From Kribbella sp. CA-293567 (GTDB lineage Bacteria; Actinomycetota; Actinomycetes; Propionibacteriales; Kribbellaceae): a DNA stretch of 64,000 bases. The DNA lies in the NCBI RefSeq assembly GCF_027627575.1, contig NZ_CP114065.1:4836001-4900000 (forward strand), given 5' to 3'. How positions within the stretch are numbered: the stretch's first letter is position 1; the number at the start of each line of letters is the position of its first letter. The notes beneath the pieces are model-generated. The model searched no databases and was not told the origin of the DNA. It worked only from the letters and a program-made list of their open reading frames with translations. This document shows, one piece after another, positions 2,382-55,078 of the stretch. Both the position numbers and the translations under genes were made by a program.

Positions 2382-3436
2382 GTGACGAGAAGCCGAACCT
2401 GCCCGCGGTTCCCGCGGAACAGGGTCACGACAACCAGGTAGTGCTGGCAGAGCCGATCCCGGACCCCGGGATCGAGCCGCACGAACTGCGCATCACCGAC
2501 ATCGACCCGAAGGCCGCTGACCGGGTCGAGCGCCAGGTCGCGACCATGTTCGGCCTGGCCGGCCTGCTCGCGCTGGGTTCGTGCGTCGCCTACTTCGCGA
2601 TCCCGCGCGACGCGATCCTCGAGTTCGGGCCGCTGAGCGGCAACGCGAACAACCTCGCCATCGGCGTCTGCCTCGGCCTCGGGCTGTTCCTGATCGGCGC
2701 CGGCGCGATCCAGTGGGCCAAGAAGCTGATGGTCGACACCGAGGTCGCCGAGGAGCGCCACGAGGCGCACTCCTCGCCGCAGCAGAAGTCCGAGATCATG
2801 GAGGCCTTCCAGCAGGGCGCCGAGGAGTCGGGCTTCGGCCGTCGCAAGCTGATCCGCCGCTCGCTGATCGGCGCGATGGCGCTGCTCGGCCTGCCGGCCA
2901 TCGTCCTGCTGCGCGACCTGGGCCCGCTGCCCGGCCGCAAGCTCTACGACACCATCTGGGCCAAGGGCATCCGGGTCGTGAACGACGTCACGCTTCGCCC
3001 GATCAAGCCCTCCGACCTGGTCGTCGGCCAGCTGGTCAACGCCGCTCCGGCGAACCTGCAGCCGATCCAGGAGGAGAGCCCGGTCGAGTACCAGAACGCC
3101 AAGGCCAAGGCCGCCGTGATCGTCGTCCGGATCGCTCCGAACGAGATCCGGACGCCGGCCGGGCGGGAGAACTGGGGCATCGACGGCATCCTGTGCTACT
3201 CCAAGATCTGCACCCACGTGGGCTGCCCGATCTCCCTGTACGAGCAGACCACGCACCACGTGCTCTGCCCGTGCCACCAGTCGACGTTCGACCTGGCCGA
3301 CGGTGCCAAGGTGATCTTCGGCCCCGCGGCCCGTCCGCTGCCCCAGCTACCATTGGCTGTGGATGCAGAGGGCTACCTTGTCGCGCAGAGCGGCTTCACC
3401 GAGCCGGTCGGCCCGAGCTTCTGGGAACGAGGGTGA
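2378..3436 (+). CDS. qcrA: Rieske iron-sulfur subunit of the bc1 complex
   Basis: Rieske [2Fe-2S] protein accepting electrons from menaquinol. It is 352 residues from the GTG at 2378, which overlaps the qcrC stop. Hydrophobic segments at about 52-68, 88-112 and 160-180 give the three-helix N-terminus typical of actinobacterial QcrA. The cluster motifs are CTHVGC (from Cys278) and CPCH (Cys297-His300). A longer in-frame start exists inside qcrC but is unnecessary. The stop overlaps the GTG of qcrB. Confidence 0.95.
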   Translation: MSDEKPNLPAVPAEQGHDNQVVLAEPIPDPGIEPHELRITDIDPKAADRVERQVATMFGLAGLLALGSCVAYFAIPRDAILEFGPLSGNANNLAIGVCLGLGLFLIGAGAIQWAKKLMVDTEVAEERHEAHSSPQQKSEIMEAFQQGAEESGFGRRKLIRRSLIGAMALLGLPAIVLLRDLGPLPGRKLYDTIWAKGIRVVNDVTLRPIKPSDLVVGQLVNAAPANLQPIQEESPVEYQNAKAKAAVIVVRIAPNEIRTPAGRENWGIDGILCYSKICTHVGCPISLYEQTTHHVLCPCHQSTFDLADGAKVIFGPAARPLPQLPLAVDAEGYLVAQSGFTEPVGPSFWERG

Positions 3437-5115
3437 CAACCGTGTCCGACAAAGACTTTCCACCGCCGGTCAAGTGGGCCGACGACCGCCTCGGCATCGG
3501 GAAGATCGGCAAGAAGAACCTACGCAAGGTCTTCCCCGACCACTGGTCCTTCATGCTCGGCGAGATCGCGCTCTACAGCTTCATCATCCTGCTGCTGACC
3601 GGTGTCTTCCTGACCCTGTGGTTCCGGCCGTCGATGGCCGAGGTCGAGTACCAGGGTTCCTACAGCCTGCTCAAGGGCCTGCACATGTCGGAGGCCTACG
3701 CCTCCACGCTGGACATCTCGTTCGACGTCCGCGGCGGTCTGCTGATGCGGCAGATCCACCACTGGGCGGCGGTGCTGTTCGTCGCCTCGATGATGGTCCA
3801 CCTGCTCCGCATCTTCTTCACCGGCGCGTTCCGCAAGCCGCGTGAGCTGAACTGGCTGATCGGCTTCGGGATGCTGTTCCTCGGCATCATCGAGGGCTTC
3901 ATCGGCTACGGCCTGCCGGACGACCTGCTGTCCGGTACCGGTCTGCGGATCACCCAGGGCATGATCCAGGCGTCGCCGGTGGTCGGCACGTACATGTCGT
4001 TCTTCATCTTCGGCGGCGAGTTCCCCGGCGACGACTTCGTCTCCCGGTTCTTCACCGTGCACGTGCTGCTGATCCCGGGGCTGATCCTGGCCCTGGTCAC
4101 GGCGCACCTGTTCCTGGTCGTCTACCACAAGCACACGCAGTACCCGGGTCCCGGCCGGACCGAGAAGAACGTCGTCGGCTACCCGCTGATGCCGGTCTAC
4201 ATGGCCAAGGCCGGTGGCTTCTTCTTCGTCGTCTTCGGCATCACCGCCCTGATGGGCGCGCTGCTGCAGATCAACCCGGTGTGGCTGTACGGCCCGTACA
4301 ACCCGGCCGAGGTGACCGCAGGCTCCCAGCCCGACTGGTACATGGGCTGGCTGGAGGGCTCCGTGCGCCTGATGCCGGGATTCGAGTCGGAGTTCTGGGG
4401 CGTCACGCTCAGCTGGAACCTGCTGATACCCGCGCTGATCATCCCGCCGGCGTTCGTCACCCTGGTCGCCCTGTATCCGTTCATCGAGAGCTGGATCACC
4501 GGCGACAAGCGCGAACACCACCTGCTGGACCGGCCGCGCAACGTGCCGACCCGGACCGGGATCGGCGCCGCGTTCATCACCTTCTACGGCCTGCTGTGGA
4601 TCGGTGGTGGAAACGACCTGATCGCCATCCACTTCGGCCTCTCGCTGAACAGCGTGACCTGGTTCCTGCGGTTCGCGGTCTTCCTCGGCCCGATCTTCGC
4701 GTTCTGGGTCACCCGGCGGATCGCTATCTCGCTGCAGCGCGCGGACAACGACCGCCTGCTGCACGGCCTGGAGTCCGGCATCATCGTCCGGACGCCGGAG
4801 GGCGAGTACTACGAGAAGCACACCCCGATCTCGAAGTACGAGGCCTACGAGCTGACCGCTCGCGACCGGACCCTGCCGCTGGAGATCGGCCCGGAGACGG
4901 ACGACAACGGCGTACGGGCTCCCAAGCGGGCGCTGCGGAAGCTGCGGGCCAAGCTGTCGGAGTTCTACTTCGCCGACGCGGTCCAGAAGCCGACGGCGGC
5001 CGAGATCGCCGAGGCCCACGCGCACGGTCACCACGACGAGCACGAGCCCATCGAAGGCGTGACCGGCACGGTCGAGCTCGACGAGGGCACCTCACGCGAG
5101 GCAACCCGGCACTGA
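3433..5115 (+). CDS. qcrB: Cytochrome b subunit of the bc1 complex
   Basis: Membrane cytochrome b that carries the two b haems and the quinol-oxidising site. The protein is 560 residues from the GTG at 3433 (VTTVSDKDFPPPVKW). It shows the haem-binding histidine region QIHHWAAVLFVASMMVHLLR, the second helix pair around VTAHLFLVVYHKH, and the PDWYMGWLEG segment near the quinol site. The hydrophilic C-terminal extension, with a His-rich HAHGHHDEHEP stretch, is usual in actinobacteria. It is the last gene of the operon and is followed by a strong terminator hairpin. Confidence 0.95.
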   Translation: MTTVSDKDFPPPVKWADDRLGIGKIGKKNLRKVFPDHWSFMLGEIALYSFIILLLTGVFLTLWFRPSMAEVEYQGSYSLLKGLHMSEAYASTLDISFDVRGGLLMRQIHHWAAVLFVASMMVHLLRIFFTGAFRKPRELNWLIGFGMLFLGIIEGFIGYGLPDDLLSGTGLRITQGMIQASPVVGTYMSFFIFGGEFPGDDFVSRFFTVHVLLIPGLILALVTAHLFLVVYHKHTQYPGPGRTEKNVVGYPLMPVYMAKAGGFFFVVFGITALMGALLQINPVWLYGPYNPAEVTAGSQPDWYMGWLEGSVRLMPGFESEFWGVTLSWNLLIPALIIPPAFVTLVALYPFIESWITGDKREHHLLDRPRNVPTRTGIGAAFITFYGLLWIGGGNDLIAIHFGLSLNSVTWFLRFAVFLGPIFAFWVTRRIAISLQRADNDRLLHGLESGIIVRTPEGEYYEKHTPISKYEAYELTARDRTLPLEIGPETDDNGVRAPKRALRKLRAKLSEFYFADAVQKPTAAEIAEAHAHGHHDEHEPIEGVTGTVELDEGTSREATRH

Positions 5116-21936: not shown

Positions 21937-22096
21937 TCCTGACTCCAGTCATCTCATAAGCGCCCGGCCGCTTTGGGCAGGCGGCCACGCGCGGAAAGTC
22001 CGCTGTCATCCGGGAGCAACGTCGGCTGTTCCCGAACCATTCCCATGGTCGCACACCATTTCAGGGATCAACCACGCACCTCAGAGTGGCGACCGT

Positions 22097-22157
22097 GGAC
22101 ACCGTCCGGTGACCTTGAACAGGATATTTCCTGTTCAAGGTCGCTACTGGGTGTTCC
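22097..22157. repeat. Dispersed palindromic element, copy A
   Basis: A perfect 14-bp inverted repeat (22111-22124 and 22129-22142; arm GACCTTGAACAGGA, loop TATT) is nested in an outer stem (GGACACC at 22097-22103 with GGTGTTCC at 22150-22157). It follows the glycerate kinase stop. The same core, TATTTCCTGTTCAAGGTCGC, recurs at 27067-27086, so this is a repeated element and not merely a local terminator. Confidence 0.75.
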
Positions 22158-22176
22158 GGCCCACCAGTGGCACCCG

Positions 22177-23379: not shown

Positions 23380-24048
23380 GTGCACTGGCCGACCACAGCA
23401 ACCGAGGCGATCGCCGTACAGGACCAACTCCGAGCCCAGGTCGACGCCAACGGGCCAGGACCGTCGCCTGCCGAGACGCGGTACGTCGCCGGCCTGGATG
23501 TCGCGTACGACGGAGATGACCTGGCTGCCGCGATCGTGGTCCTCGACAGCTCGTCCCTGGAAGAGGTCGATCGGGCGATCGTGATCGGCCGCACCGCCTT
23601 TCCGTACGTCCCCGGCCTCTTCGCCTTTCGCGAGGTGCCGGCGTTGCTCGACGCGCTCGGCAAGCTCAGCATCACTCCGGACCTGCTGGTCTGCGACGGC
23701 CAGGGGCTGGCGCACCCGCGCCGCTTCGGCCTCGCCTGTCACCTCGGTGTCCTGACCAGCCTCCCGACCATCGGAATCGCCAAGAACGCCTTCGTCGGCA
23801 CCTACTCACCACCCGCTGCCGAGCGCGGCGCGTACTCCGACCTGCTGCTGGACGACGAACTCGTGGGGGCCGTCGTCCGCACTCAGCCCAACGTCAAGCC
23901 GGTCTTCGTCTCCATCGGCCACCGAGTCGACCTCGCCACCGCGATCGCCCACACCCTGCACCTGACCCCGCAGTACCGGCTCCCGGAAACCACCCGAGCC
24001 GCCGACCACGCCTGCCGCGCCGCGCACCAGGAGTTCCTCGATGACTGA
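23380..24048 (+). CDS. nfi: Endonuclease V
   Basis: Repair nuclease that cuts DNA near deaminated bases such as inosine; 222 residues from the GTG at 23380. It has the catalytic Asp in VAGLDVAYDGDD, the FREVPALLDAL segment, DGQGLAHPRRFG and the IGIAKNAF segment. Its stop lies inside the start of the NUDIX gene (8-bp overlap), so the two repair or sanitation enzymes are probably translated together. Confidence 0.93.
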   Translation: MHWPTTATEAIAVQDQLRAQVDANGPGPSPAETRYVAGLDVAYDGDDLAAAIVVLDSSSLEEVDRAIVIGRTAFPYVPGLFAFREVPALLDALGKLSITPDLLVCDGQGLAHPRRFGLACHLGVLTSLPTIGIAKNAFVGTYSPPAAERGAYSDLLLDDELVGAVVRTQPNVKPVFVSIGHRVDLATAIAHTLHLTPQYRLPETTRAADHACRAAHQEFLDD

Positions 24049-25829: not shown

Positions 25830-27020
25830 ATGGTTGACGTGACGACCATCGCAGAGGGTTCGAAATCTCTCCCGTTGCTGTTCCTCGGCCGGGACACCGA
25901 CCCACACTCGGAGCGCGGGGTGGAGTGCCCAGGGGCACTGCCACCGGCCTCCGACCCCCATCTCGTCGAGCGGGCCCTGAAGGCCAAGGCCGCCCTCGGC
26001 GACCAGGTGTTCGTGCTCGGCCACCACTACCAGCGCGACGAGGTGATCCAGTTCGCCGATGTCACCGGTGACTCGTTCAAGCTGGCCCGCGACGCGGCCA
26101 ACCGGCCGGACGCGCCGTACATCGTGTTCTGTGGCGTGCACTTCATGGCCGAGTCCGCCGACATCCTGACCAACGAGAACCAGACGGTGATCCTGCCCGA
26201 TCTCGCGGCCGGCTGCTCGATGGCCGACATGGCCCGGATCCAGCAGGTCGAGGCCGCCTGGGACGCGCTGGCCGACGCCGGCATCGCCGACGTCACCGTG
26301 CCGGTCACCTACATGAACTCCAGCGCCGACATCAAGGCGTTCTGCGGCCGCAACGGCGGCGCGGTCTGTACGTCGAGCAACGCCGACGTCGCGCTCGACT
26401 GGGCCTTCCAGCAGGGCGAGAAGGTGCTCTTCCTGCCCGACCAGCACCTCGGCCGCAACACCGCCGTCCAGAAGATGGGCATCAGCCTCGACGAGTGCGT
26501 CGTCTACGACCCGCACAAGCCGGGCGGTGGCCTGACGGCCGACCAGCTCGCCAAGGCCAAGATGATCCTGTGGCGCGGCCACTGCTCGGTGCACGGCCGC
26601 TTCACCACCGCCGCCGTGGACGACGTCCGCAGCCGCGTCCCCGGGGTCAACGTCATCGTGCACCCCGAGTGCCAGCACGAGGTGGTCCTGAAGGCCGACC
26701 TGGTCGGCTCCACGGAGTACATCATCGAGACCATCGCCAAGGCCGAGCCCGGCACCTCCTGGGCGGTCGGCACCGAGCTGAACCTGGTCCAGCGCCTGGC
26801 GAAGCAGCACACCGACAAGAACATCGTCTTCCTGGACAAGACCGTCTGCTACTGCGCCACCATGAACCGGATCGACCTGCCGCACTTCGTCTGGGCGCTG
26901 GAGAACCTGGTCGCCGGCCACGTGGTGAACCCGATCAAGGTAGACCCCGACACCGAGAAGTACGCCAAGATCGCGCTCGACCGAATGCTCGCCCTACCCG
27001 GCAAAACCGCCAAGGACTGA
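25830..27020 (+). CDS. nadA: Quinolinate synthase
   Basis: [4Fe-4S] enzyme making quinolinate from iminoaspartate and dihydroxyacetone phosphate in NAD synthesis. The 396-residue protein has GHHYQRDEV, the cysteine regions FCGVHFMAES, HPECQHEV and CYCATMN, and the MNSSADIKAF segment. Start is the ATG at 25830 or the in-frame GTG at 25839. No nadB or nadC is adjacent, which is unusual because the three are commonly clustered. Followed by a large hairpin element. Confidence 0.95.
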   Translation: MVDVTTIAEGSKSLPLLFLGRDTDPHSERGVECPGALPPASDPHLVERALKAKAALGDQVFVLGHHYQRDEVIQFADVTGDSFKLARDAANRPDAPYIVFCGVHFMAESADILTNENQTVILPDLAAGCSMADMARIQQVEAAWDALADAGIADVTVPVTYMNSSADIKAFCGRNGGAVCTSSNADVALDWAFQQGEKVLFLPDQHLGRNTAVQKMGISLDECVVYDPHKPGGGLTADQLAKAKMILWRGHCSVHGRFTTAAVDDVRSRVPGVNVIVHPECQHEVVLKADLVGSTEYIIETIAKAEPGTSWAVGTELNLVQRLAKQHTDKNIVFLDKTVCYCATMNRIDLPHFVWALENLVAGHVVNPIKVDPDTEKYAKIALDRMLALPGKTAKD

Positions 27021-27027
27021 CCAACTC

Positions 27028-27108
27028 CGGCGACCTTGCACACCTGACGGCGACCTCGAACACGTTATTTCCTGTTCAAGGTCGCCGTCAGGTGTCCGAG
27101 GTCACCGG
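27028..27108. repeat. Dispersed palindromic element, copy B (80-bp hairpin)
   Basis: Between nadA and the convergent glycosyltransferase gene is a near-perfect long hairpin. The inner arms, 27040-27063 and 27072-27095, match at 22 of 24 positions, and an outer stem pairs 27028-27038 with 27098-27108. The loop region and right arm share TATTTCCTGTTCAAGGTCGC with the element at 22097-22157. It could end transcription from both sides, but no U-tract is present. Confidence 0.75.
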
Positions 27109-27117
27109 CGCCGGCGG

Positions 27118-28308
27118 TCAGTGCGCGACGCGGGCGGTGCTGTACCAGGTGGACAGGATGTCCGGCAGGCGATCCGGGGCCCAGCGGTCGACCGGATCGA
27201 TACGGCCTTTGAGCGAGCCCAGGCCCTTGGCCAGTTCGCCGACGACGTCGCCCTGCCAGGCAACGACCGCGCCGTCCTCGGGACCGACGATGACGGAAGG
27301 GCCGCCGCGGTCCAGGCAGACGACCGGGCAGCCACTGGCCAGGGCTTCGGCCACCGCCCAGCCGGCCGCCTCGCGCATCGCGGGGGCGAGCAGGGCGTCG
27401 GCCCGCAGCAGCGAGCTGAGGACTTCTTCGCGCGGCAGCTGGCCGACGAACTCGACCCGGTCGCGGACGCCGAGCTGCTCAGCGAGACGCTCGGCGCGAC
27501 GCCAGTCGGGGCCGTCGCCGATGACGCGGAGCTCCCAGTTCGCGGCCTCGGGGCGGGCCAGGGCGCTGATCGCCATCAGCAGCCCCTTCCACGGGATCAG
27601 CCGGCCGACGAACAGTGCCGTCCGGACGCCCGGGGCGCCGTACGGCTCCCGCGGTCCGGAGGCGGTGGCGAACCGGCTGATCGCGACGTTCGGCTGGACG
27701 ACCACCTCCCGCGCGTGCGGGCCGAAGTGCTCGGCGACATCCTTGTTCTGGGCAACGACCAGGTCGGCGTTCAGCGCGTGCTTGCGCCCGACCAGCCGGC
27801 GGCACAGGCCGGTGTAGCCGCGGCGTACGAGTTCGTTGAGCAGGCCCTTGGAGCCCAGCCAGTGCGCCATCGACAACGGCACCGCGGTCGAACCGCCGAC
27901 CGGACCCCAGATCACCTTGGCCGTCGACAGCTGGACCACCCCGGCGGGCATCCAGTCGACCGCGAAGGTCAGGTGGTGGATCACCGCGAAGGAGTGCTCG
28001 GCGTGCAGCCGCTCGGCGGTCCGCCCGGCCAGCCGCTGCCACAGCGGGTAGTACCAGTAGACGTCGGCGTGCCGGCGACGCAGCTTGAGCAGCCACTTCG
28101 GCAGCTCCAGCGGTACGACGGTCAGCGACGGGATCGGCCGGACGGCCAGTTCCTCGGCGATCTCGTGCGCGAACTTGCCGCGGGTGAGCAGCCAGACGTC
28201 GTGATCGCGCGCGGCCGCCTTCGCCCAGGCCCAGCCCGCGCCCGGTTCGGACCCGCCCTGCGGCCGGCAGGCGTAGGCACTCAGCAGGATCTTCGGCCGG
28301 GTCGACAT
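27118..28308 (-). CDS. GT4-family glycosyltransferase
   Basis: Retaining glycosyltransferase with GT-B fold, 396 residues. The N-terminal segment SAYACRPQGGSEPGAGWAWA and the C-terminal donor-binding motifs FVGRLIPWKGL and EAAGWAVAEALASGCPVVCL support GT4. It is the last of four genes overlapping by 1-4 bp (starting at 29898). The neighbours make it likely to decorate a polymer or lipid carrying a phosphoalditol. Donor and acceptor are unknown. Confidence 0.9.
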   Translation of the reverse strand: MSTRPKILLSAYACRPQGGSEPGAGWAWAKAAARDHDVWLLTRGKFAHEIAEELAVRPIPSLTVVPLELPKWLLKLRRRHADVYWYYPLWQRLAGRTAERLHAEHSFAVIHHLTFAVDWMPAGVVQLSTAKVIWGPVGGSTAVPLSMAHWLGSKGLLNELVRRGYTGLCRRLVGRKHALNADLVVAQNKDVAEHFGPHAREVVVQPNVAISRFATASGPREPYGAPGVRTALFVGRLIPWKGLLMAISALARPEAANWELRVIGDGPDWRRAERLAEQLGVRDRVEFVGQLPREEVLSSLLRADALLAPAMREAAGWAVAEALASGCPVVCLDRGGPSVIVGPEDGAVVAWQGDVVGELAKGLGSLKGRIDPVDRWAPDRLPDILSTWYSTARVAH

Positions 28309-47331: not shown

Positions 47332-49539
47332 ATGAAGAAGAGATGGCTTTTCGCGCGCCTGGGCACGGCCGGCGCGCTGGTGGCAGCGGCCGGAGTGATG
47401 GTGCTGGCACCGCCGGCCCAGAGCATCGAGGCCTCGCTGTCGGCGCAGAACAGCCCGGTCTGGCAGACCAACGCCAGTGTCCAGGGCATCACCGTGGCCG
47501 CTGGGAAGGCCTACGTCGGTGGACGGTTCACCAGCGTCCGCCCGCCGGGCTCGCCGCTGGGCACCAACGAGGTCGGCCAGGCCTACCTGGCCGCCTTCGA
47601 CGCGACCACCGGCGACCTGGTCGCCTCGTTCAACCCGGTCCTCGACGGCCAGGTGTACGCCGTGGCCGCCTCGGCCGACGGCTCGCGGGTCTTCATCGGC
47701 GGTGACTTCACCAACGTCAACGGCGTGACCCGCAACCGGGTCGCCGCCTTCGACACCGCCACCGGCGCGCTGGTGCCGAACTGGAAGCCCTCGGTCTCCT
47801 ACCGGGTCAAGTCGATCGCGGTCTCCGGCGACACCGTGTACTTCGGTGGCTCCTTCGGCCTGGTGAACGGCATCGACCGGCTCCGGCTCGCCGCCGTGAC
47901 CGCCGACCTCGGCACCTTGTTGCCCTGGGCCCCTTCCACCAACGGCGACGTGTACGCCGTGGACGTGGCCGACGACGGCTCCAAGGCCTACGCCGGTGGC
48001 CAGTTCAGCACCGTCAACGGCACCAACCAGAACACCGTCACCAGCCTCGACCCGGTGACCGGCGCGGTGCTGCCGTTCGCCGGCGCCTCCGCGGTCCCGC
48101 CGCCGAACGGCTCCTGCACCACCCGGGTCAAGTCGATCGACGCCTCGGGTGACACCGTCTACTTCGGCAACGGTGGTGACGGCGGTGGCTGCTTCGACGG
48201 CACCTGGGCCGTCGACATCGCGACCAACACGCTGAAGTGGAAGAACCAGTGCCTGGGCGCCACCGAGGCGGTCAAGATGGTGAACGGCTGGCTCTACAAG
48301 GCCTCCCACGCGCACGACTGCGCCTACAACGGCGCCGGCGCCTTCCCGCAGGGCTTCGGCTACCGCTTCCTGCTCGCCGAGAACCCGGCCGACGGCAAGA
48401 TCGGCCCGTGGTTCCCGAACACCAACGCCGGTCCGCCCACCGAGGTCGGCCCGCTGGCGCTCGCGACCGGCGGCTCGGACCTGTGGGTCGGTGGCGACTT
48501 CACCACCACCAACGGTGCCGGCCAGCAGGGTCTGACCCGCTTCACCAACGCCGGACCGGGTGCCGCTCCGGCCAAGCCGGCCAAGCTGCTGCCGTCCTCG
48601 GTCAAGGCCGGCGAGGTCCAGATCCACTTCCCCACCGTCGTGGACAACGACGACAGCACGCTGACCTACCGGCTGCTGAAGGGGTTCAGCAACACCACCA
48701 TCGCGACCTGGACCGCCACCTCGACGCCGTGGGACAAGCCGTGGCTGCACTACACCGACACCGACGTGACACCGGGTGAGGTGACCAACTACCGGGTCGA
48801 GGTGACCGACGGTACGACGACGATCCGGGGCAACTACTCCGATCCGCTCACGGTGGCGAGCGCCACCAGTACGGCGTACGACGAGATCATCAAGTCCGAC
48901 GGCCCGCAGGCGTACTGGCGGCTCGGTGAGGCGTCGGGCACGACCACCTCGACCGACTCCTCCGGCCAGAGCAACAACGGCACCTACAGCGGCATGACGC
49001 TCGGCAGCTCCGGCAAGGTGAGCGGCAACACGGCGGCCACGACCAGCTCGAGCAACGGCCGGATGGCCGGCGAGAAGGCCTACAGCATGCCGCAGCAGTT
49101 CACCGTGGAGGCCTGGTTCAAGCAGAGCTTCCTGCGCGGTGGCCGGATCGTCGGCTTCGGCAACTCCAAGACCGGCAACAGCAGCTCCACCGACCGGATG
49201 CTGTACCTGCGCTCCAACGGCCAGGTCACCTTCGGCGTCAACGACGGCAGTCAGCGCACCATCAACAGCACGTCGAACAAGAACAACAGCGCCTGGCACC
49301 ACGCGGTCGGCACCTACGACAACGGCGTCATGAAGCTGTACGTCGACGGGGTGCTGGCCGGCAGCCAGACGGTCGGTCAGGCCTCCCTCTACTACGGCTG
49401 GTGGCGAGTCGGCTACGACACCACCAACTCGTGGTCCGGTGGCGGCGCGACGCAGACCGGCATGGTCATCGACGAGGCGGCGGTCTACCCGTACGCACTC
49501 ACCGCCGGTCAGGTCCTGAACCACTACAACGCGGGCTGA
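47332..49539 (+). CDS. Secreted beta-propeller/LamG protein, paralogue 1
   Basis: Secreted protein of 735 residues: signal peptide (about 1-30), a repeat domain of WxVGGxF-like blades (QTNASVQGITVA, YVGGRFTSVRPPG, VFIGGDFTNVNG, VYFGGSFGLVNG) resembling delta-60/DUF5122 beta-propellers, then a fibronectin-like domain (about 415-515) and a C-terminal LamG-like lectin domain (about 520-735; YWRLGEASGTTT, FTVEAWFKQ, LYVDGVLAGS). A cysteine-containing motif, GNGGDGGGCFDGTW then NQCLGATE then SHAHDC, is conserved in all four paralogues. The best ATG is at 47332. Likely exposed on or released from the cell; ligand unknown. Confidence 0.85.
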   Translation: MKKRWLFARLGTAGALVAAAGVMVLAPPAQSIEASLSAQNSPVWQTNASVQGITVAAGKAYVGGRFTSVRPPGSPLGTNEVGQAYLAAFDATTGDLVASFNPVLDGQVYAVAASADGSRVFIGGDFTNVNGVTRNRVAAFDTATGALVPNWKPSVSYRVKSIAVSGDTVYFGGSFGLVNGIDRLRLAAVTADLGTLLPWAPSTNGDVYAVDVADDGSKAYAGGQFSTVNGTNQNTVTSLDPVTGAVLPFAGASAVPPPNGSCTTRVKSIDASGDTVYFGNGGDGGGCFDGTWAVDIATNTLKWKNQCLGATEAVKMVNGWLYKASHAHDCAYNGAGAFPQGFGYRFLLAENPADGKIGPWFPNTNAGPPTEVGPLALATGGSDLWVGGDFTTTNGAGQQGLTRFTNAGPGAAPAKPAKLLPSSVKAGEVQIHFPTVVDNDDSTLTYRLLKGFSNTTIATWTATSTPWDKPWLHYTDTDVTPGEVTNYRVEVTDGTTTIRGNYSDPLTVASATSTAYDEIIKSDGPQAYWRLGEASGTTTSTDSSGQSNNGTYSGMTLGSSGKVSGNTAATTSSSNGRMAGEKAYSMPQQFTVEAWFKQSFLRGGRIVGFGNSKTGNSSSTDRMLYLRSNGQVTFGVNDGSQRTINSTSNKNNSAWHHAVGTYDNGVMKLYVDGVLAGSQTVGQASLYYGWWRVGYDTTNSWSGGGATQTGMVIDEAAVYPYALTAGQVLNHYNAG

Positions 49540-49603
49540 CCGGAGACCGGCGGACCGGTGCACGCTGAGCGGACGATCGAAGTTCCATAGCACAAACTCA
49601 TAA

Positions 49604-49644
49604 CGCCGGTGGGAGCCTGCCTTCCAGTTGGTCTCCCACCGGCG
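49604..49644 (+). terminator. Hairpin between beta-propeller genes 1 and 2
   Basis: A perfect 12-bp inverted repeat (49604-49615 and 49633-49644; arm CGCCGGTGGGAG) follows the first gene and lies about 50 bases before the second start. Suggests separate transcripts. Confidence 0.65.
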
Positions 49645-49695
49645 CTAGATTTCGGACGCTCATGGACTTTCCCCCCGCCCAGTCCTAAGGAAGTT

Positions 49696-51213
49696 ATGAA
49701 GAAGCTAGTTCTGGCCGTTGTGACCGCTGCCGCCGTGCTCGGCGCGGCACTGATCCCCTCCGGTCCACCGGTGGAAGCAGCCACGTCCGGATTCGCCTCC
49801 GCCGTGTCCGCGATCAAGCAGCTGTCGTGGCAGACCAACTCCAGTGTCAACGCGCTGGCAGTCACCGGTAACACGGTGTACGCCGGTGGCCTGTTCACCC
49901 GGATCAGGCAGCCCGGCAAGCCGGCCGGTCAGGGCGAGGCGGCCCGGACCTACATCGCCGCGTTCAACCGCACCACCGGCGCGCCGCTGGCGTTCGCGCC
50001 GAAGCTCAACGGCGCCGTCTGGTCGATCGCGACCAGCCCGGACGGCAACTGGGTCGTCATCGGCGGTGACTTCACCACCGTGAACGGCATCAAGCGCAAC
50101 CGGATCGCGATGTTCAGCGTCAAGACCGGCAAGCTGGTCCAGGCCTGGGACCCGTCGGTGTCCACCCGGGTCAAGGCGATCGCGATCTTCGGCAACAGCG
50201 TCTTCTTCGGCGGCTCGTTCGGCCGCGTCGACAACGTCACCCGCAACCACCTCGCCGCCGTCCGGTTGATCCAGGGCGATCTGCTGCCCTGGAACCCGAA
50301 CGCCGACGACGAGGTCTACGCGATCGATCTGTCCGACAACGGCACCCGGGTGTTCGTCGGCGGTCCGTTCCGGCGGATCAACAACAAGGACCACTACTCG
50401 CTGGCGATGACCAACAACACCACCGGTGCCGCCTACACGATGCCCGCCGCGGCGGCCATCCCGAAGCCGACCGCGACCTGCACGACGCGGGTCAAGGACA
50501 TCGACACGCTCGGCAACAAGGTGTTCGTCGCGAACGGCGGCGACGGCGGCGGCTGCTACGACGGCGTACTGGCGGCCGACGCGACCACGGGCCAGCTGCT
50601 CTGGAAGAACAACTGCCTGGGCGCCACCGAGGCGATCAAGGCGATCGGGAACTGGGTCTACAAGGGCTCGCACGCGCACAGTTGCCCGGGCGCCTTCCCG
50701 GACGGCACCGGCACCCACTACCTGCTGGTGGAGAGCGCGATCAACGGCAACATCGGGCCGTGGTTCCCGAACACCGACGCCAACCAGAGCAGCACCACCA
50801 AGGTCGGCCCGCTGGCGTTCGCGTCCGGCGGCAACGACCTGTGGGTGGGCGGTGACTTCGTGCACGTCAACGGCAAGATCCAGCAGGGTCTGACCCGGTT
50901 CACCAACGCCGCGGGGGGCGCGGCGCCGGCGGCACCGAAGGTCCCGGCCGTTTCGCGCGCGGTGACCAACCAGATCGCTGTCCACTTCAAGGACAGCTAC
51001 GACCTGGACAACCTGTCCCTGACCTACAACGTGTTCCGCGGAGCGACGAACATCAGCTCGCAGAAGCTCACGACGTACTACTGGCAGCCGCGCAAGACGA
51101 TCATCGTGGTCGACAAGGGCGTCAAGAAGGGCCAGACGGTCAGCTATCACATCGAGATCCACGACGGGCGCAACATCATGAAGGGCCCGGCGGTCACGGT
51201 GAAGGTCCCGTAA
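49696..51213 (+). CDS. Secreted beta-propeller protein, paralogue 2 (no LamG)
   Basis: Secreted protein of 505 residues with signal peptide (about 1-27), the same blade repeats (VYAGGLFTRIRQPGK, VVIGGDFTTVNGIK, VFFGGSFGRVDN), the GDGGGCYDGV / NNCLGATE / SHAHSCPGAFPDGTG cysteine segments and a terminal fibronectin-like domain. It stops where the long paralogues continue into LamG. ATG at 49696 after AAGGAAG. Confidence 0.85.
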   Translation: MKKLVLAVVTAAAVLGAALIPSGPPVEAATSGFASAVSAIKQLSWQTNSSVNALAVTGNTVYAGGLFTRIRQPGKPAGQGEAARTYIAAFNRTTGAPLAFAPKLNGAVWSIATSPDGNWVVIGGDFTTVNGIKRNRIAMFSVKTGKLVQAWDPSVSTRVKAIAIFGNSVFFGGSFGRVDNVTRNHLAAVRLIQGDLLPWNPNADDEVYAIDLSDNGTRVFVGGPFRRINNKDHYSLAMTNNTTGAAYTMPAAAAIPKPTATCTTRVKDIDTLGNKVFVANGGDGGGCYDGVLAADATTGQLLWKNNCLGATEAIKAIGNWVYKGSHAHSCPGAFPDGTGTHYLLVESAINGNIGPWFPNTDANQSSTTKVGPLAFASGGNDLWVGGDFVHVNGKIQQGLTRFTNAAGGAAPAAPKVPAVSRAVTNQIAVHFKDSYDLDNLSLTYNVFRGATNISSQKLTTYYWQPRKTIIVVDKGVKKGQTVSYHIEIHDGRNIMKGPAVTVKVP

Positions 51214-51277
51214 CGGGGGCTGTCTGACCTCCCCGCCGCACCAGGCGGCGCGGAGGACATCCTTGAGGGGGGATGTA

Positions 51278-53467
51278 GTGAAAAAGGTGGGGATTCTAAC
51301 GCTGGGCGGTCTGCTGGTGGCAGCGTTGCTGTCACCAGCACCCGCGCAGGGCATCGGTGCTTCACTGTCGGCACTGCCGAGTCCGGTGTGGCAGACCAAC
51401 GCCAGCGTGCAAGGACTCGCGGTGGCGGACGGCAAGGCGTACGTCGGGGGGCGTTTCACCACGGTCCGGCCACCGGGGGCGGCAGCCGGCACCAGCGAGA
51501 CCGCGCGGACCTATCTGGCCGCGTTCAACCAGAGCACCGGTGCACTCGACACCGGGTTCAACCACGTACTGAACGGGATGGTGTGGTCGGTCGCGGCCTC
51601 CGCCGACGGCTCCCGGGTCTTCGTCGGCGGTGACTTCACCAAGGTCGACGGTCAGACCCGCAACCGGGTGGCGGCGTTCGACACCGCCACCGGCGCGCTG
51701 GTGTCCAACTGGAAGCCGTCGGTCTCCTACCGGGTCAAGGCACTCGCCGTCTCCGGCACCACGGTCTACCTGGGCGGCTCGTTCGGGCTGGTCAACAACG
51801 TCGCCCGGCCCCGGCTGGCGGCGGTCACCACGAGCACCGCGGCACTGCTGCCCTGGGACCCCCAGGCGGACAACGACGTGTACGCGATCGACGTGGCCGA
51901 CGACGGCAGCAAGGTCTATGCCGGCGGCAACTTCTCGACCATCGGCGGTACTTCGAGCTGGGCCGTGGCCAGCCTGGACCCGGCCGACGGTTCGCTGCAG
52001 CCGTTCGCGGCGGCCGCCGCGGTACCCGCGCCCAACGGCGGGTGCGTCTCGCGGGTGAAGGACATCGAGACCAGTGGTGACCGGGTGTACTTCGCCAACG
52101 CCGGTGACGGCGGCGGCTGCTTCGACGGCACCTGGGCCGCGGATGTTGCCTCCGGCAACCTGATCTGGAAGAACAACTGCCTGGGCGCGACCGAGTCGGT
52201 CACCGTCGTCGACGGCTGGCTCTACAAGGGCTCGCACGCGCACGACTGTGCCTACCAGGGCGGCAGCGGCTTCCCGCAGGGGCCGGGCCGGTTCCTGCTG
52301 ACCCAGAACCTCGACACCGGCGAACTCGGTCCCTGGTTCCCGAACACCAACACGGGCTCCCCCACCGCGGTGGGTCCGCTGGCCTCCGCGACCGGCGGCT
52401 CGGACCTCTGGGTCGGTGGCGACTTCACCACCGTCAACGGCTCCGGACAGCAGGGCCTGGCCCGCTTCACCAACACCGGACCGGGTGCGGCACCGGGCAA
52501 GCCGGCCAAGGTCGTGCCGGTCAGCTACAAGGCCGGCCAGGTCAAGGTGAACTTCCAGACCGTGCTGGACAACGACGACATCACGTTGACCTACCGGGTA
52601 CTCCGCAGCTTCAGCAACACCGTCGTCGCGACGTACTCGGCCGATTCGCGCTTCTGGAACCGGCCGTGGCTCTCCTTCACCGACAGCGGACTCACCCCCG
52701 GCTCGTCGCAGGTCTACCGGATCGAGGTGACCGACGGAAACAGCACGTTACGGGGTGACTACTCGGTCGCGGTGACTGTGGCCAGTGTGGACGCGCCGTA
52801 CGACCAGCAGGTGATGGCAGACGGCCCCACGGCGTACTGGCGGCTCGGGGAGGCCAACGGGACGGCCAACGCGACAGACTCGTCCGGCCAGAACAACACC
52901 GGCCCGTACTCCGGCGTCACGCTCGGGGTGCCCGGCGCACTGAGCAGCGGCGGCAACACCGCCGGTGACTTCGCCGGTTCGAGCCGGCTGATCGGGCAGA
53001 CCGCTGTCAGCCAGCCGCAGAACTTCAGCGTCGAGGCCTGGTACAAGACCACCTCCGGCAGCGGCGGCAAGATCGTTGGCTTCGGCAACAGCCCGAACGG
53101 AACCAGCAGCCAGTACGACCGGCACATCTACCTGCAGAACGACGGAGCCGTCGTGTTCGGCGTCTACGACGGTTCGACCAGGACGATCAGCTCGGCACCC
53201 GGCACCAACGACGGCCAGTGGCACCACGTGGTCGGCACCTTCTCGCCGGGTTCGCAGAAGTTCTACCTCGACGGGGTCCTGCTCGGCACCCAGAACGTGG
53301 CCGCCGCCGAGGCGTACACGGGGTACTGGCGGATCGGCGCCGACAACCTCAACGCCTGGCCGAACAACCCGTCCAGCGCCGGTGTCGACGGCACTCTCGA
53401 CGAGGTCGCCGTCTACCCGGTCGCGCTCGACGCCGACCAGGTCGTAACGCATTACGAGGCTCGCTAG
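51278..53467 (+). CDS. Secreted beta-propeller/LamG protein, paralogue 3
   Basis: Secreted protein of 729 residues with signal peptide, blade repeats very close to paralogue 1 (SPVWQTNASVQGLAVA, FVGGDFTKVDGQTRN, SFGLVNNVARP), fibronectin-like domain and C-terminal LamG-like domain (YWRLGEANGTAN, FSVEAWYKTT, FYLDGVLLGT). GTG at 51278 after GGGGGGAT. The SHAHDCAYQGGSG segment matches paralogue 1 more than 2 or 4. Confidence 0.85.
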   Translation: MKKVGILTLGGLLVAALLSPAPAQGIGASLSALPSPVWQTNASVQGLAVADGKAYVGGRFTTVRPPGAAAGTSETARTYLAAFNQSTGALDTGFNHVLNGMVWSVAASADGSRVFVGGDFTKVDGQTRNRVAAFDTATGALVSNWKPSVSYRVKALAVSGTTVYLGGSFGLVNNVARPRLAAVTTSTAALLPWDPQADNDVYAIDVADDGSKVYAGGNFSTIGGTSSWAVASLDPADGSLQPFAAAAAVPAPNGGCVSRVKDIETSGDRVYFANAGDGGGCFDGTWAADVASGNLIWKNNCLGATESVTVVDGWLYKGSHAHDCAYQGGSGFPQGPGRFLLTQNLDTGELGPWFPNTNTGSPTAVGPLASATGGSDLWVGGDFTTVNGSGQQGLARFTNTGPGAAPGKPAKVVPVSYKAGQVKVNFQTVLDNDDITLTYRVLRSFSNTVVATYSADSRFWNRPWLSFTDSGLTPGSSQVYRIEVTDGNSTLRGDYSVAVTVASVDAPYDQQVMADGPTAYWRLGEANGTANATDSSGQNNTGPYSGVTLGVPGALSSGGNTAGDFAGSSRLIGQTAVSQPQNFSVEAWYKTTSGSGGKIVGFGNSPNGTSSQYDRHIYLQNDGAVVFGVYDGSTRTISSAPGTNDGQWHHVVGTFSPGSQKFYLDGVLLGTQNVAAAEAYTGYWRIGADNLNAWPNNPSSAGVDGTLDEVAVYPVALDADQVVTHYEAR

Positions 53468-53475
53468 ATATACGG

Positions 53476-53508
53476 GGTGGGGCCTGCCTTCGACAGGCGG
53501 GTCCCACC
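53476..53508 (+). terminator. Hairpin between beta-propeller genes 3 and 4
   Basis: A 13-bp stem including two G-U pairs (53476-53488 with 53496-53508) starts nine bases beyond the stop of the third gene. Together with 49604-49644 it suggests that members of the array end their transcripts separately. Confidence 0.55.
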
Positions 53509-53575
53509 GCAGCCGGTGAGGGGTCACCGGACTTTCAAGGGGTGCCGGAGGGGTTCGGCACGACAGGGGGAAACC

Positions 53576-55078
53576 ATGCGTTTACGGAGGATGACTGCTG
53601 CGCTCGCCGCCGCAGGACTCGCGCTGGCCGTCGTGCCGGCGCTGCCGGCGACCAGTACCGGGGCTTCACTGACAGCAGTACCGGGGACGACCTGGCAGAC
53701 CGACGCGGCCGTGCTCGGTCTCGCGGTTGCCAAGGGCAAGGCGTTCGTCGGCGGCCGGTTCACCCGGGTCCGCCCGCCGGGCGCCGCCGCCGGCACCAAC
53801 CAGACCGTCCGGACCTACCTGGCGGCCTTCAACCAGACCACCGGGGCACTCGACACCGGCTTCAACCACACGCTGAACAACACCGTCTGGTCGATCGTCG
53901 CCTCGCCCGACGGAACCAAGATCTACATCGGCGGGGACTTCACCCGCGTCGACGGCCAGGTCCGCAACCGGATCGCCGCCTTCGACGCGACCACCGGGGC
54001 GCTGCTGCCGAACATCAGGCCCAACGTCTCCTACCGGGTCAAGACGGTCGCGGTCGGCGGCGACAGCCTGTACTTCGGCGGCTCCTTCGGCCTGGTCAAC
54101 AACGTCGCCCGCAACCGCGCGGCGGCGATCAGCACGGTCGACGGCAGCCTGCTGCCGTGGAACCCGAACGCCGACGCCGACGTGTACGCGATCGACGCAG
54201 CCGACGACAACTCCAAGGTGTACCTGGGCGGCACCTTCGCCAGGATCGGCGGCATCAGCCGCTGGGCGGTTGCCAGTGTCAACAACTCGACCGGGGCGCT
54301 GCTCCCGTTCGCGGCCGCCTCCGCGGTACCGCTGCCGAGCAGCCGGTGCACCTCGCGGGTCAAGGACATCGAGACGAGCGGCGACGTCGTCTACTTCGCC
54401 AACGCCGGTGACGGCGGCGGCTGCTTCGACGGGACCTGGGCGGCGAACATCGGCACCGGCAGCCTGATCTGGAAGAACACCTGCCTCGGCGCCACCGAAG
54501 CGATCACGATGGTCAACGGCTGGCTCTTCAAGGGCTCGCACGCGCACAGCTGCCCGGGTGCCTTCCCGGACGGCACCGGAGCACACTTCCTGCTCCTGCA
54601 GAACCCGGCGAACGGCAACCTCGGTCCCTGGTTCCCGAACACCAACGCGGGTCCGCCCACCGAGGTCGGTCCGCTCGTCTCGGCCACCGGTGGCTCGGAC
54701 CTGTGGGTCGGAGGCGACTTCACCAAGGTGATGGGAGCCAACCAGCAGGGCCTGACGCGCTTCAACAATCTGGGGGCGGGCGCCAAGCCCCTGGGCCCTG
54801 TGCTGCCGACACTGTCCAGTACTACGACCGGTCAGGTGCGGGCGACCGTCCAGACCTCCCTGGACAACGACGACATCACGCTGACCTACCGGCTGCTGCG
54901 GGGCGGCTCGAACACGGTGGTTGCCACCACGACGGCCAACTCCACCTTCTGGAGCCGCCCGACGGTGACACTGACCGACACCACGGCACCGTCCGGCACG
55001 TCGCAGCAGTACCGGATCGAGGTCTACGACGGCAACAACGTGGTACGAGGCGGGTTCGCCGGCATCACTGTGCGCTAG
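53576..55078 (+). CDS. Secreted beta-propeller protein, paralogue 4 (no LamG)
   Basis: Secreted protein of 500 residues. The N-terminal half (FNQTTGALDTGFNHTLNNT, GGSFGLVNNVARN) is closest to paralogue 3, while the SHAHSCPGAFPDGTGAHF segment matches paralogue 2, a mosaic consistent with gene conversion. It ends after the fibronectin-like domain with no LamG. ATG at 53576 after CAGGGGG. The last 14 bases overlap the convergent flippase gene. Confidence 0.85.
   Translation: MRLRRMTAALAAAGLALAVVPALPATSTGASLTAVPGTTWQTDAAVLGLAVAKGKAFVGGRFTRVRPPGAAAGTNQTVRTYLAAFNQTTGALDTGFNHTLNNTVWSIVASPDGTKIYIGGDFTRVDGQVRNRIAAFDATTGALLPNIRPNVSYRVKTVAVGGDSLYFGGSFGLVNNVARNRAAAISTVDGSLLPWNPNADADVYAIDAADDNSKVYLGGTFARIGGISRWAVASVNNSTGALLPFAAASAVPLPSSRCTSRVKDIETSGDVVYFANAGDGGGCFDGTWAANIGTGSLIWKNTCLGATEAITMVNGWLFKGSHAHSCPGAFPDGTGAHFLLLQNPANGNLGPWFPNTNAGPPTEVGPLVSATGGSDLWVGGDFTKVMGANQQGLTRFNNLGAGAKPLGPVLPTLSSTTTGQVRATVQTSLDNDDITLTYRLLRGGSNTVVATTTANSTFWSRPTVTLTDTTAPSGTSQQYRIEVYDGNNVVRGGFAGITVR

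Follow-up and report, generated by a model that had tools for sequence, protein, structure and literature searches.

What is the role of a long, near-perfect hairpin that fills the short gap between two genes converging upon it? The question is raised by a locus in the window analysed here, a stretch of 64,000 nucleotides from Kribbella sp. CA-293567, in which a 97-nt gap separates the stop codon of nadA (quinolinate synthase, 25830..27020, + strand, start uncertain; Pfam NadA, PF02445, E 1e-99), ending at 27020, from the stop at 27118 of a glycosyltransferase gene (27118..28308, - strand; Pfam Glycos_transf_1, PF00534), the last of a convergent run. An inverted-repeat search of the window placed the two arms of this hairpin, copy B, at 27027-27062 (left, + strand) and 27073-27108 (right, + strand), each of 36 nt and lying 10 nt apart, with 32 of the 36 positions paired (89%; 22 matches in the inner 24 pairs and 10 in the next 12 outer pairs, when counted base by base), and the arms were also recovered in the fold. 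The RNA fold of positions 27010-27130 reached -75.6 kcal/mol compared to -42.0 +/- 4.2 for 200 shuffled sequences, none of which was as good (z = -8.0), and copy B was the strongest hairpin when 50 of the window's gene ends were scored, the two ends reading into it having the lowest z-scores. The original prediction, of a long near-perfect stem (22 of 24 in the inner arms plus an outer stem) lying between nadA and convergent genes, was thus borne out on both points.

Copy B proved to be one member of an 84-nt dispersed repeat, which we call family I, with its full element at 27026..27109 (+ strand; 89 bits on the + strand and 79.6 on the - strand with covariance model R1, built from 15 copies). 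Another member, copy A (22085..22168, + strand, 87 bits with R1), lies 8 nt past the stop codon of a glycerate kinase gene, on its 3' side and in a tandem context. In each family I arm a 14-nt block, of consensus GGCGACCTTGAACA / TGTTCAAGGTCGCC, occurs twice in an exact 20-nt register, with forward blocks at positions 48 and 68 of the element and reverse blocks at 24 and 4. Copy B accordingly reads as two blocks in reverse, an AT-rich 10-nt centre and two blocks forward (<4 <24 >48 >68 in the unit scan), these being the outer left block (27029..27042, - strand, also matched by the sequence pattern at G000:C1:4863029-4863042 with 1 mismatch), the inner left block (27049..27062, - strand, unit scan and pattern match with 1 mismatch), the centre or loop (27063..27072, + strand, read from the sequence), the inner right block (27073..27086, + strand, an exact copy of the consensus TGTTCAAGGTCGCC, found by pattern match and unit scan) and the outer right block (27093..27106, + strand, unit scan).

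A single axis of symmetry was found in 75 of 76 family I copies examined. In some copies the register continues on one side only, with unpartnered additional blocks at 88, 108, 128 and 148, and one locus (L139) holds a mosaic array, << >>>>>> << >>>, in strict 20-nt register; such arrays reach six 20-nt units. Identity within the arms was 0.73 at a lag of 20 compared to 0.13-0.32 at the other lags from 14 to 26, and the mean column entropy was 0.35 bits in the inner blocks, 0.66 in the outer blocks and 1.21 in the spacers. With two 14-nt blocks per arm at 20-nt spacing, much of family I is conserved as sequence, beyond mere pairing. Pairing does not account for a linked change of TTGAA to TCGGA, which occurs within each block (columns 12/14, 32/34, 51/53 and 71/73) and is not coupled across the arms.

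In its own genome (G000, 7.6 Mb) a DNA search gave 22 matches and R1 gave 33, both strands being counted in each case, and the element was read at 15 places at least; R1 gave 100 matches in G023. These copy counts are lower bounds, because the number of candidates that each search scores is limited. R1 matched 32 of 38 genomes of the genus Kribbella, with zero matches in the other six (G003, G007, G010, G024, G028 and G030), and an order-wide search matched 13 of 57 genomes, all of them among the 18 genus members drawn, with none of the 39 genomes from outside the genus giving a match. A sequence pattern run against named genomes hit 14 stretches, of which 10 were from Kribbella, 1 from Streptomyces sp. 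SID13031 and 3 from unrelated bacteria. At the locus itself, the only Rfam models to overlap were two for eukaryotic miRNAs, both scoring far below the gathering threshold, with no bacterial family fitting, and no prior publication on family I was seen among the matches listed from the open-licence literature.

Where these elements lie was assessed on a sample of 76 copies, the best-scoring ones from six genomes, with G023 supplying more than half, using a home-made gene caller based on codon-position composition; this caller missed an endonuclease V gene at 23380-24048 and overstretched some 5' ends, so that 3' ends were trusted more. Of these copies 43 were convergent, 30 tandem and 3 divergent, compared to 18, 98 and 78 respectively for the element-free gaps of at least 84 nt at the same loci (Fisher p 1.6e-15); in G000 alone, 6 of 15 copies were convergent and 9 tandem. 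No copy of the 76 lay inside a called gene, and 73 of them adjoined a 3' end; the median distance to the stop codon was 12 nt, and 58 of the 73 lay within 30 nt. Tandem copies were closer to the 3' end of the upstream gene in 26 of 30 cases, and both stops lay within 60 nt in 34 of the 43 convergent cases.

The original prediction held that pairing itself is kept between copies, and proposed that copies be compared for compensatory changes. When arms were exchanged among copies within each genome (a shuffle that corrects only partly for the relatedness of copies), pairing fell from the observed 0.930 to 0.879 +/- 0.007 in the inner stem and from 0.607 to 0.535 +/- 0.018 in the spacers, with 0 of 2000 shuffles reaching the observed value in either case, but in the outer blocks the observed 0.767 was matched by the exchanged 0.765 (930 of 2000 shuffles). 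Covariation, and with it the claim, is therefore supported in the inner stem and the spacers but was not detected in the outer 14-nt blocks. Among 12 orthologous comparisons in the same orientation, which are not all independent, 14 of 129 changed pairs were compensated on both sides; at the nadA boundary itself one pair was compensated and six had changed otherwise.

Turnover at orthologous sites was considerable. NadA was found in 37 of the 38 genus genomes, and the glycosyltransferase gene was directly convergent with nadA within about 120 nt in 17 of these. Two of the 17 boundaries held family I (G000 and G023), four held clear long hairpins of other sequence at -55 to -70 kcal/mol (G036, G017, G019 and G027), three held weaker folds, as judged by fold energy (G003, G007 and G024), and eight had a gap of 28 nt or less and no hairpin, so a hairpin is dispensable at this boundary. 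The nadA-end hairpins of G036, G017 and G004 (in the last of which the nadA end has another neighbour) are themselves dispersed families, and that of G019 had no second match in its own genome among the matches listed. Of the 50 distinct places occupied by families II-IV, left after two repeats were dropped from 52 rows, 23 were convergent, 20 tandem and 2 divergent, the same preference as in family I, while the other 5 lay at the edge of a contig or locus; read by eye, the arms of these families also look to be phased by approximately 20 nt. Different hairpins (in one case with a TTTT tail), family I in a reduced form, or just 2-3 nt of gap were seen among the orthologues of three further G000 sites, and at a fourth the orthologues were too divergent to judge.

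We consider that family I probably acts as a bidirectional transcription terminator, or 3'-end barrier, which lacks a U-tract. RNA polymerase arriving from nadA or from the convergent glycosyltransferase run would transcribe, 5-8 nt past the stop codon, a near-perfect 36-pair hairpin, which could terminate the transcript without a U-tract or else shield a transcript that ended just beyond it from 3'-to-5' decay, so that collisions between the two genes, and antisense reading from one into the other, would be limited in either case. The family would then be a genus-wide set of REP/BIME-like palindromic repeats that may spread as cassettes, replacing or being replaced by other gene-end hairpins. 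The position at gene ends, the exchange with other hairpins and the partial covariation all fit termination and favour it. A stable hairpin shortly past the stop codon, as expected of an intrinsic terminator, is present, both at copy B and across the family with its median distance of 12 nt. A U-rich tract was found in only 3 of 110 stretches downstream of family I, and no terminator consensus site was found at the focal locus. Hairpin transcript ends without a U-rich tract have been reported from Streptomyces clavuligerus, where they account for 353 of 535 structured ends (PMC8269248), and a 13-genome survey argues that poly-U is dispensable for termination (PMC8355165).

In the 30 tandem copies, mismatches showed no sense-strand bias (68 G-U compared to 61 A-C) and element orientation was also unbiased (12 of 30), and selection on the RNA strand was thus not seen. 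Given this lack of G-U over A-C bias and the absent U-tract, a terminator acting at the RNA level, like the transcription of family I and its mode of spread, is something that we infer from the sequences. Counting against termination, it requires no conserved blocks phased at 20 nt, the outer blocks lack covariation, and the hairpin at the nadA boundary is dispensable in other species. The original prediction that the hairpin stops transcription in both directions consequently gains from genome-wide position and from exchange at orthologous ends, and loses from the missing U-tract and RNA-strand bias.

A possible but rather unlikely alternative is that family I is a selfish repeat, similar to REP/BIME or MITE elements, that has no part in termination and accumulates past stop codons where insertion does least harm, with the hairpin serving transposition. 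Its many near-identical dispersed copies, the coexistence of several families, the mosaic arrays of up to six units and the empty orthologous sites would all be expected of such a repeat, as would the flipped orientation of 5 of 17 orthologous family I pairs, and the REPs of other bacteria are likewise described as lying mainly between convergent and unidirectional genes (PMC3733652). Against this, the Y1 transposase (PF01797) was found 0 times in G000 and in only 1 of the 38 genus genomes, while a control search was positive in 5 of 14 genomes; direct repeats from flank to flank, sought as the target-site duplication of a MITE, were at chance level (4.76 compared to 4.68 +/- 0.11, the true edge of the element being uncertain); proximity to stop codons far exceeds what random intergenic placement would need; and hairpins from outside the family often occupy the orthologous positions. 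That the arms stay complementary through mutation and not selection, by template switching at quasi-palindromes, could be argued from how few changed pairs (14 of 129) were compensated on both sides in the 12 same-orientation comparisons and from mismatches without RNA-strand bias, but it leaves both the gene-end position and the 20-nt phase unexplained and we regard it as highly improbable.

The phased blocks invite a different explanation, in which a sequence-specific protein that binds DNA or RNA, perhaps one concerned with topology or the nucleoid in the way that gyrase and IHF bind BIMEs, would recognise the element as an array of sites and act as a roadblock or a supercoil sink between convergent genes, with the palindrome being secondary. 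The exact register (0.73 identity at lag 20), the low entropy of the inner blocks relative to the spacers, the extra one-sided blocks without partners and the TTGAA/TCGGA change linked inside a block and not across the arms would all suit such an array; yet covariation of the spacers across the arms would be superfluous for plain binding, recent amplification could equally keep the blocks identical, and no candidate protein was found, and so we judge this quite unlikely. Unlikely too is a wider proposal, that the genus has several families of phased palindromes, unrelated to one another (four blocks at 20-nt spacing in approximately 84 nt), which may be interchangeable bidirectional gene-end cassettes, whose blocks a putative genus-specific protein would recognise, stopping polymerase between convergent operons and enabling spread without a RAYT transposase.

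Among known systems, the REP, BIME and REPIN elements of Enterobacteria, Pseudomonas, Stenotrophomonas and others share with family I short palindromic units, many extragenic copies, regular spacing (here of 20 nt) and alternating orientation (PMC2817692, PMC3733652, PMC3116915), and REPs and BIMEs are also mostly found between convergent and unidirectional genes (PMC3733652); roles in termination and in the binding of gyrase and IHF have been suggested for these repeats (PMC2817692, PMC3733652). The copy number of family I in G000 is below the more than 100 given as typical of REPs (PMC2817692), its 14-nt block is not a long palindrome, and four blocks at strict 20-nt spacing form one 84-nt hairpin. 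The RAYT transposase that goes with these elements was not found in G000, and neither a GTAG nor a CGTC tetranucleotide occurs in the block consensus, which is why family I was not filed as a REP. CGTC-tagged REPs are similarly palindromic dispersed repeats without a transposase of their own (PMC3733652), but they differ from family I in that tag and in size and phasing. The U-lacking stem-loop ends and bidirectional I-shaped terminators of S. clavuligerus resemble it as GC-rich hairpins right past stop codons, without a U-tract and, in family I probably, working in both directions (PMC8269248), but those are single structures, while family I is a dispersed family with phased internal repeats. 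Family I is best named a new form of dispersed extragenic palindrome, phased at 20 nt, RAYT-less and with a probable terminator function. In kind it is ordinary; less so are the constant 20-nt phase, the presence of several families side by side and their exchange at a single site.

If this is true, repeat families mark the ends of genes in this genus and take each other's place at a given site. A single convergent junction could then be studied with family I, with family II, with a different hairpin or with nothing at all, and such comparisons would make testable the old question of whether REP-like elements act at gene ends. Family I would also supply compact bidirectional terminator candidates for GC-rich hosts.

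Several minor observations were made at individual loci. At the G000 site in L012, family I is replaced by a gap of 2-3 nt in two other species, and the orthologue in G026 (L213) has an unrelated near-perfect hairpin of approximately 38 pairs at the gene end. In G023 (L221) the flanks that align with those of a G000 family I site are approximately 1.2 kb apart, and the stretch between them has a similar sequence of approximately 38 nt near both of its ends. A pair of elements at L009 was considered as transposon ends and dropped, as it recurs around one and the same gene in three species and the ORF that it encloses had no Pfam match. G036 carries two copies of an approximately 780 bp segment (L180 ~2850-3630 and L190 ~2991-3767) which are 96% identical, have no gene called inside and are flanked on either side by family II palindromes; part of their interior matches a further dispersed repeat, of which G026 and G023 have many pieces and G000 has none. 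Within the window itself, positions 47400-55000 hold three to four long repeated protein-coding segments which are 60-80% alike.
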